From positions 1 to 64,000 of the forward strand of contig REEO01000036.1 of assembly GCA_007695035.1 (NCBI GenBank): a stretch of 64,000 nucleotides of DNA, given 5' to 3'. Origin of the DNA: Saprospirales bacterium. Lineage in GTDB: Bacteria; Bacteroidota; Bacteroidia; Chitinophagales; Saprospiraceae. The notes under the pieces are model-generated. The model was not told the DNA's origin, made no database searches, and saw only the letters and a list, made by a program, of their open reading frames with translations. Both the position numbers and the translations under genes were made by a program. Numbering within the stretch: the stretch's first letter is position 1; the number at the start of each line of letters is the position of its first letter. Below are positions 10,586 through 18,003 of this stretch, piece after piece.

Positions 10586-11710
10586 TTGGCCTTTAAAAGA
10601 TTGGGATTGACACAATTCAGAAACCACGGACTGTCGCGGTTTGACTTCCCGACCCGGGTGGTGGGTATTGTCGGACCAAATGGCAGTGGAAAAACGACTG
10701 TGCTGGATGCCCTCCATTTTATTTCTGTTGGGAAGGGACTCACTGCAGCAACCGACCTGGCTTATCTTATGGATGGTGAGGACTTTTTCCGCCTTGAATG
10801 TGTGGCCCAGCAGGAGGGAGTGGAAAAAAAAATAGTGATCAAGTACCGGAAGGGCAAGGGAAAAGTATTGGAGGTGGATGACTCCCGACTCACAAAGCTC
10901 GTGGAGCACGTCGGCAGCTTCCCGGTGGTGAGTATGATTCCACAGGACATCGACCTCATTCTTTCTGGTAGCAGGGAGCGAAGGAGGGTCATGGACCTCA
11001 CCTTTTCCCAAATTGATCGGGAGTATTTTGAATCTCTGGTCCACTATCGAAAATTAATGCGACAGCGAAATGCCTTTTTGAAAAAAGCGCTGAAAACCGG
11101 GGTGGTCAACTGGGAATTACTGAAGACTTACGACCGCAGGATAAAACCCCATGCGGATATCATTTACGCCGCGAGAAATGAATACTGTGGAGAGCTGCTC
11201 AGACATTTCAAATTCTTTTATTCCGATATTTCAGGTGGGTCGGAAAAGGTGGAATTCACCTACCTATCCCAACTGCACGATGCTGCATATGGCGACCTGA
11301 GTGTCCGTTTTTCCGAAAAGGACCGGGTCATGGGGCGTTCACACGGCGGCATCCACAAAGACGATTTGGATTTCACTCTACTCAATCGCAAACTAAGGGA
11401 TGTGGCTTCTCAGGGACAACTGAAATCCACGGTACTTGCTCTTAAACTGGCTTCCCACAAGTTGATAAGAAACCGCACGGGCATAGATCCCGCATTTTTA
11501 CTGGATGATCTTTTCGACAGGCTGGACATGGACCGCGCATCCAATTTTCTCCACACAGTTAAGGAGCACACCACCGGCCAGATATTTATCACCGACACCA
11601 ATTTGGAGCGCCTGACCGGTGCCATATCCTCCATGAATGAAAAATTTTCTATCTTTTCGATCCGAAAGGGAAGAGTAGATGATATGATTGACGAGCAAAA
11701 AACCAGATGA
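10586..11710 (+). CDS. recF: DNA replication and repair protein RecF
   Basis: This 374-residue SMC-like ATPase loads RecA at single-stranded gaps together with RecO and RecR. Walker A is VGPNGSGKTT (about residues 29-38), the RecF-specific segments SVGKGL and HGGIHKDDLDF are present, the signature is ASQGQLKST and Walker B is FLLDDLFDRLD. The start is TTG at 10586: an in-frame TAA at 10571 leaves no ATG or GTG before it, and the first residues (AFKRLGLTQFRNH) match the family N-terminus. The stop overlaps the ATG of the DUF721 gene in ATGA, which implies translational coupling. Confidence 0.95.
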   Translation: MAFKRLGLTQFRNHGLSRFDFPTRVVGIVGPNGSGKTTVLDALHFISVGKGLTAATDLAYLMDGEDFFRLECVAQQEGVEKKIVIKYRKGKGKVLEVDDSRLTKLVEHVGSFPVVSMIPQDIDLILSGSRERRRVMDLTFSQIDREYFESLVHYRKLMRQRNAFLKKALKTGVVNWELLKTYDRRIKPHADIIYAARNEYCGELLRHFKFFYSDISGGSEKVEFTYLSQLHDAAYGDLSVRFSEKDRVMGRSHGGIHKDDLDFTLLNRKLRDVASQGQLKSTVLALKLASHKLIRNRTGIDPAFLLDDLFDRLDMDRASNFLHTVKEHTTGQIFITDTNLERLTGAISSMNEKFSIFSIRKGRVDDMIDEQKTR

Positions 11711-12003
11711 TGTTCAAAAAGAGCAATGAGCAAAAATTAGGAGATATCCTAAAGCAATTTTCGTCCAAAAGAAAGATAAAACCCGGATACGATCAGTACC
11801 GGGTTAAAAAGTGGTGGCATGAAAACATGGGCGGAATGATCAACGAGCAAACTTCCGGAATTTATCTCAAACACAAAGCACTCTACATCTCGGTATCCTC
11901 AGCATCCCTTCGGTCGGAACTCAATATGAGCCGCGACGCACTCAGAGAGAAAATCAACAGAGAGCTGGACGGGGAAGTGGTGGAAAAGATCATTGTACGG
12001 TGA
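11707..12003 (+). CDS. DUF721 family (DciA-like) protein
   Basis: This 98-residue basic protein carries the DUF721 core (a short N-terminal helix region, then LYISVSSASLRSELNMSRDALREKIN). DUF721 includes DciA, the helicase-loading factor of bacteria that lack DnaC. The Bacteroidota members are short and typically follow recF, as here. Its start overlaps the recF stop by four bases, so the two are made from one message. A role in replication or repair fits both the family and the partner, but direct loader function for this short form is inference. Confidence 0.88.
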   Translation: MMFKKSNEQKLGDILKQFSSKRKIKPGYDQYRVKKWWHENMGGMINEQTSGIYLKHKALYISVSSASLRSELNMSRDALREKINRELDGEVVEKIIVR

Positions 12004-12103
12004 TGGGTTCTATTACTCCAGACTGCAAGTGAGTTATCTGATGCCCTGGCCAAATTGCAGTCGTCCATTTTCCGGTCCCCACTCGAAGTTTGCAGATTAT
12101 CCG

Positions 12104-12111
12104 TAAGTTTG
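12104..12111 (+). promoter_or_regulatory. -7 element TAAGTTTG of the transporter-HEAT gene
   Basis: Exact TAnnTTTG, 21 bases before the ATG at 12133, predicting a leader of about 15 bases. It lies downstream of the TTG at 12055 that begins the longest open frame. Confidence 0.6.
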
Positions 12112-12132
12112 AGGCAATTAAACAACAGGCAG

Positions 12133-14868
12133 ATGACTTACAGTGGCGTGTTGAGGTTTTTTCAGATAAAGGGGGCCGAGGTCCCCACTTTCCTCAATAT
12201 GTTGGGTCACTCCTTTTTTAATGCCCTGGCAATCGCTTTTTCTTTTACTGCAATCAACGTATTGCTGGTGGAGATGAACGGGATAGAAAATCTCCCCTAT
12301 ATATACTTGCTAGGCGGGTTTTTGATGCTGATAACCGGCCGGATATACTCCTCACTCGAGTCAAGACTGCCTCCTCAGAGACTTTTTACGCTGGTCTTAC
12401 TGTTTTGTATGGGCTGGGCCATTGTCGCGCGATCAGCAGACCTGGTCCAAAATACTCTGCTTTTTGTATCCTTCCTTTACGCCCTTTACCTCGTAATTTA
12501 CCAGCTCAGTAACCTGGAGTTTTGGGGAGTGGCATCACTGCTCTACGATGTACGCCAGAGCAAAAGGCTGTTTGGGATGTTGACAACGGGGGAATCTGTG
12601 GCTAAAATACTGGGATATATGGCTACCCCGCTCATCGTGACCTGGTTTTCGGTGTACGACCTTTTCCTCTGTGCGGCAGTGGCTTTTCTCATCTCCCTGA
12701 TTTTCTTTTACAGACTGGCCCGCCTCAACAAAGAAGGCTTAAAAGTAGCTCACCATCACGATGAGGATCACGAAAAAAAGAGCGGCAGTTGGCTTTCGGT
12801 ATTTCGCATTGGAGACCCCTTTTTGCGAATAACAGGATTGTTTGCCCTGCTGGCTGTTTTGGTCTATTACTTTGTACATTACACCTTTCTAAACCGCGTT
12901 GAGGTTCACTTTAGGGAAGCAGAGGAGCTGGCTTACTTTTTTGGGCTCTTTTTCAGTTTTGGTACCTTTCTCAATCTTGCCAACCGTCTTTTGGTGTTCA
13001 ACCGTCTTTTCAAAATGTTGCGAATAGGAAACATGATACTCATATTGCCTGCCTTTCTGGCTGCATTTACGCTTGCCGGCCTGGTTGGGATGGTTTTTAT
13101 TGAAGACCCGCTTTACTACATGCTTTGGGTTTTTGGTTTGATTATGCTGTTCGATGAGATATTGCGGTCCTCTCTGCACCTGCCCTCCTTTTTTGTGCTT
13201 TTTCAGCCACTTTCAAAACACAAGCGATTGGAGGGGCACACCTTGGCAAAGGGCAGAATGGAGCCACTGGGCATATTATTGGCCGGTGGCGTGATGCTTG
13301 TATTGATTTGGTTTGGAGTTTTTGAGATTCAGAGCATTATTGTTTGCCTGGCCGTGGCCTTGATTTTGTGGATTTTGGTTGGAATGAAGGTTTCAAGAAT
13401 GTACGGTGAACTGGTTCGCTTTTTGCTAAAAAACCGACTCCTCACAAGCCGAAATTTGGACTTTTCAAAAGAAGAACTGGGAGCAATTGGAGGGGAGGTT
13501 AGTGCCAGTACCGATCCGGTAAATCTCCTTTATCGACTTAAAGTTATGGGCCCCGGCTTGCCTAATCAGGAGCGAAAAGATTTGCTGGTGAGATTATTGA
13601 GTGACGAGAATCCGCTTGTATTAAAAGAAGCCCTCGAACTGGCAGGGGAATTTCGGGATGAGAGAATGGTGCCCTATGCGAGGGAATTGGCAGGTCATGA
13701 AAATTTGGAAGTGAGCTCTAAGGCGGTTTTTTTGCTGTGCTCATTTTTAGAGGACGATGCTGTCGAGGAGCTGGAGGAGGATATAAATCAGAGCAGGGGA
13801 GAGCGCAGAGAACAACTGGTTGCAGCTGTGCTCAAGTACAGTGGAATAGTTGGAGCGACAACCTATGGGAGCGCGCTGATGGACAAAGTGAGATCAAGTT
13901 CAATCGAGGATAGAATAACTGCTGCAAATGTGATCGGGCTTGTAGGGCTCAGGGACTATTACCACCCACTGGCTAAATTGCTGCGGGATGAAGACAGGGA
14001 AGTCAGAAGGGCAGCAATTACTGCAACAGCCACGGTCAAAAATGAAAAGCTCATCCCCATCCTCTTTGAAATTGTGATTTCGGGTGAGTTATTCCGCGAG
14101 GCATCCAGGGCCATTGCAGCCTTTGGAAAGGAGGCTATACCGCACCTCAAACTGGAGCTGGCTAAGTCCTATGATATCAGGATACACCAGCGCCTCCTTA
14201 AGATCGCGGGGCATATTCACCTTCCCGGTTCGCTGAGATTACTCGTTACCGAATTGTTGGCCTCGGACCCAGGCAACAGATCAGTAGCAATCTCAGGAAT
14301 TTACTATTCAGGTGAAACGATTACCGGGGCAGAAATCAGGGAGAAAGTGGATCGTTTACTCGACCTGGAGGCCCAATATTTTGATGTATTGGTAGCTCAA
14401 CTTTTGTCCCCACTTGCAGAGGATGAAGACCGCTTGAAGCGCTCTTTGTTGAGTGAATTGGATTTGCAGCGAGATCGGGTTTTGAAAATAGCAGGCCTGT
14501 GGTATGGCCGCAAACTCATTCAGCGCATATCGGACAATTTGAGATCTGCCGATCGGAGCCTGGCTGCCAATGCCATTGAGCTACTCGAGAATAGATTGGT
14601 GAGAAGGGATGCCGCCAGGGTGATTCCGGTGGTTGAATTTTCTTTGGAAACCCTCTACGACTGGAAGAAAAGTCACCGCAATTACCAAAAAGACCAGGGC
14701 ATTGAATCTCTTTTTTTTAACGGATGCATTTGTGCCAGTGAATGGCTTATTGCGCTGATGGTAAGAATATACAGAGAGCGTGGTATTGAGCTGCCAACTG
14801 ATATATTGTCCCGCCTGGAGGGAATTGATTCGGAGGCCGTTATGGCTGAGTTAAACGCCAAAAATTAA
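12133..14868 (+). CDS. Nucleotide-transporter (NTT/AAA)-like membrane protein fused to HEAT repeats
   Basis: The 911-residue protein has two parts. Residues 1-425 contain about 12 hydrophobic segments of an MFS-like fold. The signature segment LEFWGVASLLYDVRQSKRLFGMLTTG..VAKILG matches the ATP/ADP translocase (NTT) family, in which an FW...A.....R.AKR.F....G motif is conserved. From about residue 450 onward the chain is a soluble alpha-solenoid of HEAT repeats (for example DENPLVLKEALELAGEFRD, DEDREVRRAAITATATV). NTT proteins fused to HEAT and cyclic-nucleotide-binding domains are known in free-living bacteria. Here the binding domain is a separate gene four bases downstream. The substrate is unknown; a sensor rather than a transporter is possible. 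The start was placed at the ATG after the promoter. Confidence 0.8.
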   Translation: MTYSGVLRFFQIKGAEVPTFLNMLGHSFFNALAIAFSFTAINVLLVEMNGIENLPYIYLLGGFLMLITGRIYSSLESRLPPQRLFTLVLLFCMGWAIVARSADLVQNTLLFVSFLYALYLVIYQLSNLEFWGVASLLYDVRQSKRLFGMLTTGESVAKILGYMATPLIVTWFSVYDLFLCAAVAFLISLIFFYRLARLNKEGLKVAHHHDEDHEKKSGSWLSVFRIGDPFLRITGLFALLAVLVYYFVHYTFLNRVEVHFREAEELAYFFGLFFSFGTFLNLANRLLVFNRLFKMLRIGNMILILPAFLAAFTLAGLVGMVFIEDPLYYMLWVFGLIMLFDEILRSSLHLPSFFVLFQPLSKHKRLEGHTLAKGRMEPLGILLAGGVMLVLIWFGVFEIQSIIVCLAVALILWILVGMKVSRMYGELVRFLLKNRLLTSRNLDFSKEELGAIGGEVSASTDPVNLLYRLKVMGPGLPNQERKDLLVRLLSDENPLVLKEALELAGEFRDERMVPYARELAGHENLEVSSKAVFLLCSFLEDDAVEELEEDINQSRGERREQLVAAVLKYSGIVGATTYGSALMDKVRSSSIEDRITAANVIGLVGLRDYYHPLAKLLRDEDREVRRAAITATATVKNEKLIPILFEIVISGELFREASRAIAAFGKEAIPHLKLELAKSYDIRIHQRLLKIAGHIHLPGSLRLLVTELLASDPGNRSVAISGIYYSGETITGAEIREKVDRLLDLEAQYFDVLVAQLLSPLAEDEDRLKRSLLSELDLQRDRVLKIAGLWYGRKLIQRISDNLRSADRSLAANAIELLENRLVRRDAARVIPVVEFSLETLYDWKKSHRNYQKDQGIESLFFNGCICASEWLIALMVRIYRERGIELPTDILSRLEGIDSEAVMAELNAKN

Positions 14869-14872
14869 GCTT

Positions 14873-15313
14873 ATGGAGTTTTTGATCGACAAAGTATTTT
14901 CACTCAAAGGGGTTTCCGTTTTTGAAAAACTGCCCGAGGCCTCCTTGCTGGATGTTGCCAGAATAATGGATTACGACGAGTTTAAAAAAGGGGTGGAATT
15001 CATTCGCAAGGGTGAAATGGCAGGGGAGATGTACATTGTAAAAAGTGGCGAGGTAAAGGTCCACGACGGGGAGCATTTGCTGGCCAAACTGGGCCCGGGT
15101 GAAATAGTTGGTGAGCTGGCCCTTTTGACTCCCATCCCGCGCACGGCCTCGGTGAGTGCCCTTTCTGATGTGGTGGTTTACAAAATTGGCAGGGAACACT
15201 TTTTAGACCTTCTGTATGAAAAACCGGAATTGATGAACGAGATCATCGAAGTGCTCATCCAACGCATTATAGCCCTGAATGAAGAGATTAAAAAATTAAA
15301 ATCGGGCCAATAA
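14873..15313 (+). CDS. Stand-alone cyclic nucleotide-binding domain protein
   Basis: This 146-residue protein is almost entirely one CRP-type cyclic-nucleotide-binding beta-barrel. The phosphate-binding cassette reads GEIVGELALLTPIPRTASV, with the Glu and Arg that contact the ribose and phosphate both present. There is no DNA-binding helix-turn-helix after the barrel, only a C-terminal helix (EVLIQRIIALNEEIKKLK), so it is not a CRP/FNR transcription factor. It starts four bases after the transporter-HEAT gene, so the two are co-translated and the protein probably acts on or with that membrane protein. Whether it binds cAMP or cGMP cannot be decided; the Thr after the cassette Arg occurs in cGMP-type sites but is not decisive. 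Confidence 0.88.
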   Translation: MEFLIDKVFSLKGVSVFEKLPEASLLDVARIMDYDEFKKGVEFIRKGEMAGEMYIVKSGEVKVHDGEHLLAKLGPGEIVGELALLTPIPRTASVSALSDVVVYKIGREHFLDLLYEKPELMNEIIEVLIQRIIALNEEIKKLKSGQ

Positions 15314-15358
15314 TCCTCGGTTTGATTTTTCTCAGTCGGCTTATTTCCGTGTATTGAT

Positions 15359-15937
15359 TTACTTGACTATTTCCTTTAGTTCCTCGAGGTATTTGGCTTT
15401 GACCGGCGCCCTGTATTTTTGCGCCCATTCGGTGTGAAATTGGTGACTCTCGAAAAATGAGACCTGGATTTGATTCCATTTGTTGCGGTCAGTCAGCCCT
15501 TTGAATTGCTTTAGCTCCTCAAACAGGGATTCGCTGATGGGATAAAAATCATCCCTGCCCAGATAGTCAAGGTCAGCATCGCAAATGATCTCTTCCAATC
15601 CAGTTTTCGGCTCTTGTGGCACTTTGGTTGCCATAATCAGTCCGGAAATGATTTTTATTGCCCTTTTGGAGAATTTAAAGCGAGGGAGAATCCGCTCAGC
15701 AATTTCAACCCCTTTTTTTTCGTGCTCATCGTAGGTGTACAAAAATCCGGTATCGTGCATCAGCGCCCCGGTTTTCAGCAAAGTAGTATTTTCCTGATTC
15801 AATTGAAAACGCTTGCAATGCGCAATGCATATCTGCAGGACATCGCGGGTGTGATGGACACCGTGATAGGTTAGTTTTGGAGAGAGGTTTTTCTCCAATT
15901 CAACCAAGACAAATTTTTCCAATTCCTGGTACCGCAT
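15359..15937 (-). CDS. HD-domain phosphohydrolase
   Basis: This 192-residue cytoplasmic protein carries a complete metal-binding HD set: His25/28/29 in YHGVHHTRDV, His61-Asp62 in LMHDTGF, and Asp120/Asp122/Asp124 in ICDADLDYLG. HD proteins hydrolyse phosphomonoester or phosphodiester bonds, commonly of nucleotides. It faces the cyclic-nucleotide-binding gene (stops 45 bases apart). A role in degrading a nucleotide signal sensed by that gene pair is attractive but is inference from position only. No terminator is visible between the convergent stops. Confidence 0.82.
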   Translation of the reverse strand: MRYQELEKFVLVELEKNLSPKLTYHGVHHTRDVLQICIAHCKRFQLNQENTTLLKTGALMHDTGFLYTYDEHEKKGVEIAERILPRFKFSKRAIKIISGLIMATKVPQEPKTGLEEIICDADLDYLGRDDFYPISESLFEELKQFKGLTDRNKWNQIQVSFFESHQFHTEWAQKYRAPVKAKYLEELKEIVK

Positions 15938-16042
15938 GATTGGTGAGCCGGTTCAGCAAACTACAAAGGTATTAAGAAAATGCGATATATTTTAAATGCA
16001 GTGGTCGATAGTGGCCAAATAGAGTGAAAATGGGCTTTTTTT

Positions 16043-16384
16043 TTACCCAATCCGGGTGCCATTTTCGACTTCGGAATCCGGTCGAAGGAGTACCACCTCC
16101 CCATTGCTTTCAACCGTGCCGAGTACCAGGCACTCACTCATCATATTGGCAATTTGTTTTGGTGGGAAATTGATTACTGCAACCACCTGGGTTCCAATGA
16201 GGTCTGCCGGGAGGTATTTGTCGGTTATTTTTGCCGAGCTTTTTAGTCTTCCCTCCTCGCCAAAGTCGATGACCATTTTGATGGCGTGATCTTTTGCCTC
16301 TTCAAAATAGGCAGCCTCCAGCACCGTGCCGACGCGCATATCTAATTTTTTAAAGTCCCACCAATTTGCCTTACCGCTGTCCAT
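16043..16384 (-). CDS. csaA: CsaA-like tRNA-binding domain protein
   Basis: This 113-residue protein is a single EMAP-II/CsaA-type OB fold. It runs from WWDFKKLDMRVGTVLEAAYFEEAKD through RLKSSAKITDKY.P.DLIGTQVVAVINFPPKQIA and MSECLVLGT to a VLLRPDSEVENGTRIG end, the standard CsaA order. CsaA is a secretion-related chaperone in Bacillus, and the fold binds tRNA-like structures. I start at the ATG at 16384; an in-frame TTG three codons upstream would overlap the stop of the subtilase gene. It follows the subtilase gene by five bases, suggesting a shared transcript. Confidence 0.9.
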   Translation of the reverse strand: MDSGKANWWDFKKLDMRVGTVLEAAYFEEAKDHAIKMVIDFGEEGRLKSSAKITDKYLPADLIGTQVVAVINFPPKQIANMMSECLVLGTVESNGEVVLLRPDSEVENGTRIG

Positions 16385-16389
16385 TGATA

Positions 16390-18003
16390 TCAATTTGACC
16401 GCTCGATGGCGAGTTTTACTGCCTCATACGCATTGATGTAGCCACCTGTGCTGCTCAGTTCGCTAAAATGGACCAACTCCCTGTCGCTTGGCCGCGTCAC
16501 TTCAGCATCTTCCCTGATGGCAGAATCCTCAATTATAGCCTTGATTTCCCTTGCTGAAAAATCGGGAAAATAAGACCTCAAAAGCGCTGCCAGTCCTGCC
16601 ACCATTGGAGAAGCCATACTGGTTCCCTGCAAATCCTGGTAGTCATCTCCGGGAACGGTGGAGTAGATAAAGTTGCCCGGCGCAAAAACATCCACTGTTT
16701 CTTTTCCATAATTGGAGAAGGAAGCCACCAGTGTAGGGGGATTTTCGTAGTTCAGTGCTCCTACTTCTATCCAATTTCGGGCCTGTCTCGGACCCAGGAA
16801 TCTTCTTCGCTCGAAAACGGGGTTGGGAAAATTGTCGTTGAGGTCGTTGTTTTGGGCGCTGTTTCCGGCTGCGTGAACCAGCAGTACATCATTTCGATCT
16901 GCGTGTCGGATCGCATCGTCCACCACCTGTTTGTTCCAGGAATAACCCTTTCCAAAAGACATGTTTATTACTGAGGCTCCATTGTCCACTGCGTAGCGGA
17001 TGGCATTGGCCACGTCCTTGTCTCTTTCATCGCCGTTGGGTACAGTCCTGATGGACATTATGCGTACATTGTCTGCAATTCCGTCAATGCCGATGTCATT
17101 GTCCCTGACTGCACCAATAATTCCGGCCACGTGGGTTCCGTGTTGGGAAAATTCACCTCCCACCTCATTGTTCCCGTAATACCGCTCCTCCTGGTCGTCG
17201 TAATTGTCGTTGACCAAATGCCGCGGACAGAAATCAACATTGTAGTGGTAATTGTACCGTGAGCGGTAGTGTTCAATTCCGCCGGTCAGATTTTCCTTCA
17301 GGTCCTCGCGCAAATTGTCGTAATCGGCATCGGGATAGTCCTCCAGGAAATTGAGTAGAACCTGTACCCCAAAACTCACGTCCCGGTCTCCCTGGGGATC
17401 GATGTTGAGAAGTGCTTCCTCGGTAAGGGGCTCGTCTCCAATTGCCAACATTACCTTGTCAATGGACAACAGCAACCTGTCGGTGAATTCTTTGAACTGC
17501 TCGTAATTGTTTTTTGAATTCTCCCTCCCGCGTTGGTAAGCCCGTTTATAACTCAAATACCGCGCGTATTCCTTGCGCTCTCTCCTGTTCAATTCCATTG
17601 GGTCCCTTTCTGCATACTTGTCACGAAATTTGCGGTAGAGTCGGGTTATCTCCAGGTTGTCGTAAATGACATTACTGTCAGGTCCTCCAATGAAATTCCA
17701 CCCGTTAATGTCATCTGCATAACCGTTTCCGTCGTCATCCCTCCCGGTTCCGGCTGTTTCACCCGGATTGACCCAGACATTATCCCTGAGGTCTTCGTGG
17801 TCGATATCGACTCCACTATCAATGACGGCCACAACTACTGTTCGACTTTCACGTCCCTCCAACAATTCATAAGCACCGGTGGTATTCAACCCTCGATAGC
17901 CGTCGTTATCAGGGCAGAGATGAAACCAGTCCAGAGGAACCTGGGGCTGTGCCAGAACAACTGTTGGAATCAAAAGGAGGAGGAAAAAGATATTCTTCAT
18001 CAA
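16390..18003 (-). CDS. Secreted subtilisin-like S8 peptidase
   Basis: The 537-residue protein has a Sec signal peptide (MMKNIFFLLLLIPTVVLAQ). The mature domain carries the full subtilase triad: Asp62 in VAVIDSGVDIDH, His in GTHVAGIIGA and Ser in GTSMASPMVAGLAALL, with the oxyanion Asn in VHAAGNSAQNN. Between Asp and His lies a long insertion of roughly 200 residues, rich in charged and aromatic residues (about 100-290), which is larger than in canonical subtilisins. A calcium-loop-like DDDGNGYADD lies near residue 90. There is no type IX secretion C-terminal domain; the chain ends with the catalytic domain. A second ATG at 18000 is an equally possible start. Confidence 0.9.
   Translation of the reverse strand: MMKNIFFLLLLIPTVVLAQPQVPLDWFHLCPDNDGYRGLNTTGAYELLEGRESRTVVVAVIDSGVDIDHEDLRDNVWVNPGETAGTGRDDDGNGYADDINGWNFIGGPDSNVIYDNLEITRLYRKFRDKYAERDPMELNRRERKEYARYLSYKRAYQRGRENSKNNYEQFKEFTDRLLLSIDKVMLAIGDEPLTEEALLNIDPQGDRDVSFGVQVLLNFLEDYPDADYDNLREDLKENLTGGIEHYRSRYNYHYNVDFCPRHLVNDNYDDQEERYYGNNEVGGEFSQHGTHVAGIIGAVRDNDIGIDGIADNVRIMSIRTVPNGDERDKDVANAIRYAVDNGASVINMSFGKGYSWNKQVVDDAIRHADRNDVLLVHAAGNSAQNNDLNDNFPNPVFERRRFLGPRQARNWIEVGALNYENPPTLVASFSNYGKETVDVFAPGNFIYSTVPGDDYQDLQGTSMASPMVAGLAALLRSYFPDFSAREIKAIIEDSAIREDAEVTRPSDRELVHFSELSSTGGYINAYEAVKLAIERSN

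Follow-up and report, generated by a model that had tools for sequence, protein, structure and literature searches.

Membrane proteins in which a nucleotide transporter (NTT) domain is joined to a HEAT-repeat solenoid, with or without a cyclic-nucleotide-binding domain (cNBD), were described by Major, Embley and Williams in 2017 (PMC5381601). NTT-HEAT and NTT-HEAT-cNBD proteins, the cNBD being either fused or encoded several nucleotides downstream, are reported there from numerous bacteria and also, among other groups, from cyanobacteria and oomycetes; they were then uncharacterised, and a tuning of ATP uptake by cyclic AMP (cAMP) was suggested. A locus of this kind lies in the 64,000-nucleotide stretch of contig REEO01000036.1 of a Saprospirales bacterium that we call the window. 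Three open reading frames (ORFs) were confirmed there: one for an NTT-HEAT protein and one for a small cyclic-nucleotide-binding (CNB) protein, both on the forward strand, and one for an HD-domain protein on the reverse strand. The order NTT, HEAT and then CNB a few bases downstream, which marks the group of PMC5381601, was found in the window with exactly 4 bases between the NTT-HEAT stop codon and the CNB ATG. Because they were published in 2017, neither the split sensor nor the idea of cAMP control is new. The term 'HD domain' occurs 0 times in the text of PMC5381601 and no cyclase neighbour is described in its available part, nor did we find any HD or cyclase link to NTT-HEAT, or later functional work, in the open-licence literature; the HD gene is the new part of the finding. 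On balance, we favour the view that the three genes encode the reader, the output and the eraser of a cyclic-nucleotide circuit, most likely one using cAMP. An earlier reading of these letters alone (the sequence-only reading) had proposed a nucleotide-signal circuit of the three genes, and as a whole that interpretation is partly supported by what follows.

The HD gene converges with the CNB gene, as the sequence-only reading had seen, and lies 45 bases from its stop codon. Within the genus, NTT-HEAT was found in 8/8 genomes searched (the window's own included), followed in all eight by CNB and then by HD, one copy of which is truncated by a contig end; because of this conservation, the trio is not a chance arrangement. 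Six of the eight loci have the gene order RecF, DUF721, NTT-HEAT, CNB, then HD and CsaA on the opposite strand, and the remaining two end at contig ends. Conserved adjacency of the HD gene had been set as a check on the earlier proposal, and it extends far beyond the genus. A contig scan gave 198 NTT-HEAT relatives, and our counts of named loci (handles beginning with L) use the best 80 of these 198. The HD gene was present in 54 of the 80, and in 49 of the 70 that have at least 700 bases on both sides; it is convergent in 36 loci, directly upstream on the same strand in 16 and divergent in 2. Its gene overlaps the NTT gene by 4 bases at L098, and 2 bases separate the two at L100. Among 298 genomes of the order, 57 carry NTT-HEAT and at least 17 of these 57 have an adjoining HD gene (11 convergent, 6 upstream), a minimum obtained from two match tables compared by eye, of which the HD table reaches about E 2e-38. 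Genomes G181 and G191 also have HD beside CNB, near a contig end. Some genome-set loci and named loci come from the same genome (e.g., L103, L169) and were not counted together.

It is very unlikely that this adjacency is inherited synteny without function. Its arrangement is clustered on a tree of 81 carrier domains (2 changes for the upstream HD form, 1 for the divergent form), as partly shared descent would have it, while on the same tree HD switches between present and absent ten times or more; since the arrangement is clustered and yet changing, the HD count reflects in part shared descent and in part repeated loss or gain. Against plain synteny, the adjacency outlasts changes of orientation, and no other neighbour is kept to a similar extent: when neighbouring ORFs were clustered, HD appeared at 54 loci and every other family at 10 of the 80 or fewer, apart from one cluster at 26 loci (53 ORFs), a single-linkage mixture in which cyclases, kinases and regulators come together and which we did not treat as a family. 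The genus neighbours RecF, DUF721 and CsaA were near NTT in only 5, 5 and 4 of the 80 loci. As a separate observation, the NTT loci L139, L177 and L179 come from metagenome-assembled genomes labelled Campylobacteraceae and Anaerolineae (labels unchecked), sit on far branches of the tree and show no HD in their stretch.

The HD protein matched PF01966 (E 2.3e-8, 34.8 bits against a cut-off of 22), and Y24, H25, H29, H61, D62 and D122 are identical in 48/48 aligned sequences, so that the metal ligands are complete, as had been claimed. The spacing of its YHxxxHxxDV, HD, D and QxxF elements resembles what we take to be the motifs of class I phosphodiesterases (PDEs), and Q158-x2-F161 recalls, in sequence spacing only, what is presumably their purine clamp. 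The fold points the same way. A structural model built from 48 rows (pLDDT 98.4, pTM 0.93) was compared with solved structures by VIA-align, and all 50 matches listed were PDE10A or PDE7A by title or chain range. PDE10A was best (Z 18.3, root-mean-square deviation (rmsd) 2.6, 186/192 residues, 14% identity), with PDE7A at Z 17.3; nearly the whole HD protein thus has its fold in common with these animal class I PDEs, a likeness that by itself does not establish function. No bacterial HD enzyme stands among the 50 matches listed, one outside the list being possible.

Several results nevertheless speak against a PDE. Ranked by E-value, the best Foldseek match of the model was 2pq7 (1.2e-3), a predicted HD hydrolase, then ADP-bound YpgQ with PDE5 and PDE2 close behind, and there was no match at E<=0.001. 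A profile of the HD family run against the PDB likewise found 2pq7 (7.5e-7), no class I PDE scoring better than E 0.13, and a single-sequence PDB search gave one chance-level match. PDEase_I (PF00233) had no match to the window protein and none above its cut-off in any of 296 genomes, its weak matches being confined to 23 of the 48 aligned HD proteins (best E 5.1e-4). The protein is also shorter than class I PDEs (192 residues against 277-330 in the PDE chains listed, at 13-18% identity) and lacks HDxxHxG, F65 replacing the histidine, in what we assume to be the class I PDE form of the motif. Because HDxxHxG is absent and PDEase_I does not match the window protein, we say that, judged by its sequence and modelled fold, it may work like a class I PDE rather than be one. 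These rankings also bear on another explanation, in which the HD protein would act on the transported solute, as a YpgQ-like nucleotide pyrophosphohydrolase or a nucleotidase, and the module would be a regulated nucleotide salvage unit. The first two places in Foldseek E-value favour it, as does the fact that NTT relatives carry nucleotides according to the structure titles. We nevertheless consider it unlikely: class I PDEs are the nearest folds among the VIA-align matches listed, and the HD family keeps company with cyclases, in fusions and in gene pairs.

This company was directly seen. In eleven NTT-bearing genomes of family f8 with no HD seen beside NTT, a class III cyclase lies directly before HD in 11/11, always on the same strand and at most 35 bases away, and 9 of these 11 stretches hold no CNB or NTT domain in the part fetched, which argues against an enzyme devoted to the carrier's solute; in the other 2 a CNB gene faces HD near a contig end. 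At L195 and L196 the cyclase and HD genes share 4 bases. Of ten proteins containing this HD domain that were scanned with Pfam, the fusion partner is a class III cyclase in 3 (L087, L090, L091), PycTM in 3 and YitT in 3, and 1 stands alone; since most were chosen for their long frames, these proportions do not measure how frequent the fusions are. Around the NTT unit itself, cyclases occur in the flanks of 17 of the 80 loci (20 ORFs) where about 0.7 would be expected from 164 matches in 46 cyclase-bearing genomes, assuming a genome of 4 Mb and with loci that are not independent. At L125 one strand carries cyclase, HD, NTT-HEAT and CNB in that order, separated by 34, 6 and 9 bases; L160 has the same four-gene order on one strand, and in five loci (L146, L151, L159, L169, L183) CNB-NTT is faced by cyclase and HD. 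Pfam confirmed 9/9 cyclases scanned, 4 of them among the 20 (L125, L131, L151, L160; E 7e-26 to 6e-55). In 11 of the 20 cyclase ORFs, the K of KIKTxGD occurs together with the D of D(I/V)WG, two residues that we take to be those of adenylyl (purine-type) cyclases. When 98 HD domains were placed on a tree, the NTT-linked ones clustered (13 changes, against 32 when shuffled) without forming one group, and cyclase-linked and NTT-linked HDs adjoin in several clades.

Altogether, the HD protein probably acts on a cyclic mononucleotide. For the earlier claim that it removes the signal, the PDE-like fold, the cyclase neighbours and the cyclase fusions give backing, while hydrolysis itself is what we infer from them. 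There is a precedent for a single HD protein as eraser in plants: in the available text of PMC8431786, BDPDE1 was assayed in vitro with cAMP and cGMP and AtCN-PDE1 is reported to lower cGMP, both being described as YpgQ-like and given no link to a carrier or CNB protein.

A number of side observations concern the fusions and the cyclases. HD is fused to membrane domains of PycTM, a Pycsar effector, at L092:1294-2547, L093:1493-2731, L094:1290-2438 and L095:1-1977 (L092, L094 and L095 by Pfam scan); the next gene at L092 and L093 is phosphohistidine phosphatase-like (SixA-like, by eye), and these PycTM-fused proteins perhaps serve housekeeping rather than defence. At L085:658-2109, L086:1618-3078 and L088:524-1990, HD is fused to a YitT membrane protein of five transmembrane segments with DUF2179, about 485 residues in all, the three loci coming from three genomes of the scanned order. 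Short cyclases (~347 residues) with the motif DKFMGDAVMAVF occur at L131, L135, L136, L158 and L183, where their neighbours include small regulators and kinases bearing a motif similar to YLRLSYHGLRAKDK, and the L131 cyclase is a response regulator with a cyclase domain (Pfam); a two-component input may feed the circuit. A 79-residue cyclase fragment, comprising the C-terminal part only, immediately precedes HD and the NTT-CNB unit at L204:2937-3176 (genome G105), as either a decayed cyclase or an assembly fault.

The membrane half, called NTT-like in the sequence-only reading, which had set a family match by profile as another check, almost certainly belongs to the NTT (ATP/ADP carrier, TLC) family, with the NTT version of the major facilitator superfamily (MFS) fold. 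A profile built from 29 carrier domains, searched against the PDB, matched only solved NTTs at E<0.1, namely 9j3n (E 1.3e-13) and 9j3j (E 1.7e-11), both named ADP,ATP carrier protein 1 and coming, per structure titles, from Chlamydia pneumoniae and from Arabidopsis. The whole NTT-HEAT protein was modelled with AlphaFold2 (39 rows, pLDDT 84.7); its pTM is 0.56, and therefore the placement of the domains in the model is uncertain. By VIA-align, residues 2-429 of the model superpose on Arabidopsis AtNTT1 (9j3m) over 421 aligned residues (Z 38.1, rmsd 2.8), with 9j3l at Z 37.3 and 9j3n at Z 31.2 against 27.8 for the best non-NTT carrier; by Foldseek, the top four matches are NTTs. AtNTT1 and C. 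pneumoniae NTT1 (9j3j, 9j3l, 9j3m, 9j3n, 9j3o) are like the window protein in carrier fold and in both aligned signatures, FWGVASLLYDVRQSKRLF corresponding to FWGFANEITKIHEAKRFY and QPLSKHKRLEGHTLAKG to IPLDQEQKVKGKAAIDV. The membrane carrier is kin of the chloroplast ATP/ADP exchangers, and its modelled fold is that of a nucleotide carrier.

This assignment has its contrary evidence. Of the five NTT entries, 9j3j (25.5) and 9j3o (25.1) do not rise above unrelated carriers in VIA-align, and identity to the solved NTTs, to which the window module adds HEAT and CNB parts, is 13-15% in superposition. Pfam TLC (PF03219) had no match to the window protein, and a TLC search of its own genome was empty, with a control that matched nowhere; because that control matched nowhere, the question was decided by profile and fold. 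Among the carrier homologues, PF03219 matches 2/29 (best 3.3e-6) and MFS_1 15/29, a single-sequence Pfam scan of NTT-HEAT gave HEAT families and a sub-threshold MFS_1 with the rest at chance level, and NCBIfam gave weak or partial names only. The first signature retains K144 and R145, and where the NTT motif HEAKRF has its glutamate, Q142 stands here; the charge also differs in the second signature. Since these charged residues are changed, nucleotide transport may be lost. It is conceivable, if improbable, that NTT-HEAT is no longer a carrier and serves as a receptor or scaffold in the membrane, either relaying a solute signal to the CNB protein or receiving a cAMP signal from it. The replaced acidic residues fit this, with R141, S143, K144, R145 and L146 of the first signature and Q358 of the second invariant in 29/29 carrier domains, and HEAT repeats are interaction modules; set against it are the completeness of the carrier fold over its length aligned with AtNTT1 and the basic residues partly kept in both signatures. 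Between the alternatives of the sequence-only reading, gating and reception, we lean slightly towards gated transport as the output.

The HEAT solenoid fused to the membrane half is as the sequence-only reading had it (PF13646, 8.7e-17), and so is the stand-alone sensor. PF00027 is the sole Pfam family of the CNB protein (77.2 bits against a cut-off of 27.5), which has no second Pfam family and hence no DNA-binding domain found by that scan. Its cassette is intact: G80, E81, R90 and A92 are present in 37/37 aligned sequences, with S (30), T (6) or M (1) at position 91. That the sensor is split off is true of this locus, but not peculiar to this genome, and the split form was described in PMC5381601; across the 80 named loci the CNB is split in 58, fused to NTT-HEAT in 17, lost at a contig end in 4 and missing from 1, so that 75/80 have it in one form or the other. 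The CNB protein and NTT-HEAT very probably form one functional unit.

We propose the following circuit. Class III cyclases, on other contigs in this genome and in the same gene cluster in some relatives, would make a cyclic nucleotide, which is reasonably likely to be cAMP; the CNB protein would bind it and act on the carrier's HEAT solenoid, with which it forms one protein in other lineages; this would switch a carrier of NTT fold whose solute would be nucleotide-like or otherwise anionic, ligand, gating and the substrate and direction of transport all being inferred; and the HD protein would hydrolyse the cyclic nucleotide and so reset the switch. Some observations fit such a circuit poorly. 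HD was not seen in the fetched stretch of 26 of the 80 loci, 21 of which have enough sequence; no cyclase lies in the window or on its contig, the five cyclase domains of the genome all being on other contigs; and the HDs of L155 and L164, the two divergent loci, group on the tree with PycTM-fused HDs and away from the others. More tentatively, the HD proteins could be an undescribed family of bacterial cAMP PDEs, structural kin of the animal class I PDEs, acting as a common eraser in Bacteroidota and paired with cyclases or with a cAMP-gated NTT, the whole circuit being clustered in some genomes. If so, Bacteroidota would have a candidate cAMP PDE family related in fold to animal drug targets. 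The association with a PDE-like HD family and with adenylyl-type cyclases points to the likely signal and supplies candidate enzymes, and with them the function of NTT-HEAT-cNBD proteins becomes testable by simple assays.

Pycsar phage defence resembles this module in combining a cyclase with a CNB domain; PADLOC matches the CNB protein and neighbouring cyclases, and HD-PycTM fusions occur in the order. A difference from Pycsar is that 11 of the 20 neighbouring cyclases have what we take to be purine-type residues. Membership in Pycsar was rejected: in none of the three proteins did Pfam find a TIR or PycTM effector, and the PADLOC matches of the CNB protein span only the CNB stretch. The Pycsar and TIR-effector matches of the CNB protein by PADLOC are due to the shared domain.

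Features of the NTT-HEAT, CNB and HD genes in the window, with the evidence for each
Feature	Position	Strand	Evidence
NTT-HEAT membrane protein, 911 residues	12133..14868	+	Profile and fold match to solved NTTs; HEAT_2 8.7e-17
NTT carrier domain, residues 1-445 (boundary cut by us)	12133..13467	+	Profile against PDB; VIA-align
Signature FWGVASLLYDVRQSKRLF	12520..12573	+	Aligns with FWGFANEITKIHEAKRFY of 9j3n
Second NTT-like signature QPLSKHKRLEGHTLAKG, residues 358-374	13204..13254	+	Aligns with IPLDQEQKVKGKAAIDV of 9j3n
HEAT-repeat solenoid	13468..14865	+	PF13646; model nearly all helical
Stand-alone CNB protein, 146 residues	14873..15313	+	PF00027, E 9.7e-22
Phosphate-binding cassette GELALLTPIPRTA, residues 80-92	15110..15148	+	Alignment of 37
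HD protein, 192 residues, predicted cyclic-nucleotide phosphodiesterase	15359..15937	-	PF01966, fold, adjacency, cyclase linkage
H25-x3-H29 of motif YHxxxHTxDV	15851..15865	-	H25 and H29 in 48/48
H61-D62	15752..15757	-	48/48
D122 of DADLDYLG	15572..15574	-	48/48
Q158-x2-F161	15455..15466	-	47/48 each

Around these genes, Rfam gave no match in 11000-17000, a tRNA search of the window found none, and a scan for promoters and terminators returned counts near those of shuffles (6 against 4.9 and 7 against 5.1). Position 12104, where the range given in the sequence-only reading begins, is out of the NTT-HEAT frame. The longest ORF of this gene runs from 12055 to 14868 (TTG 12055), and the ATG at 12133 is the probable start because the ORFs of L002 and L003 open at the same MTYSG.

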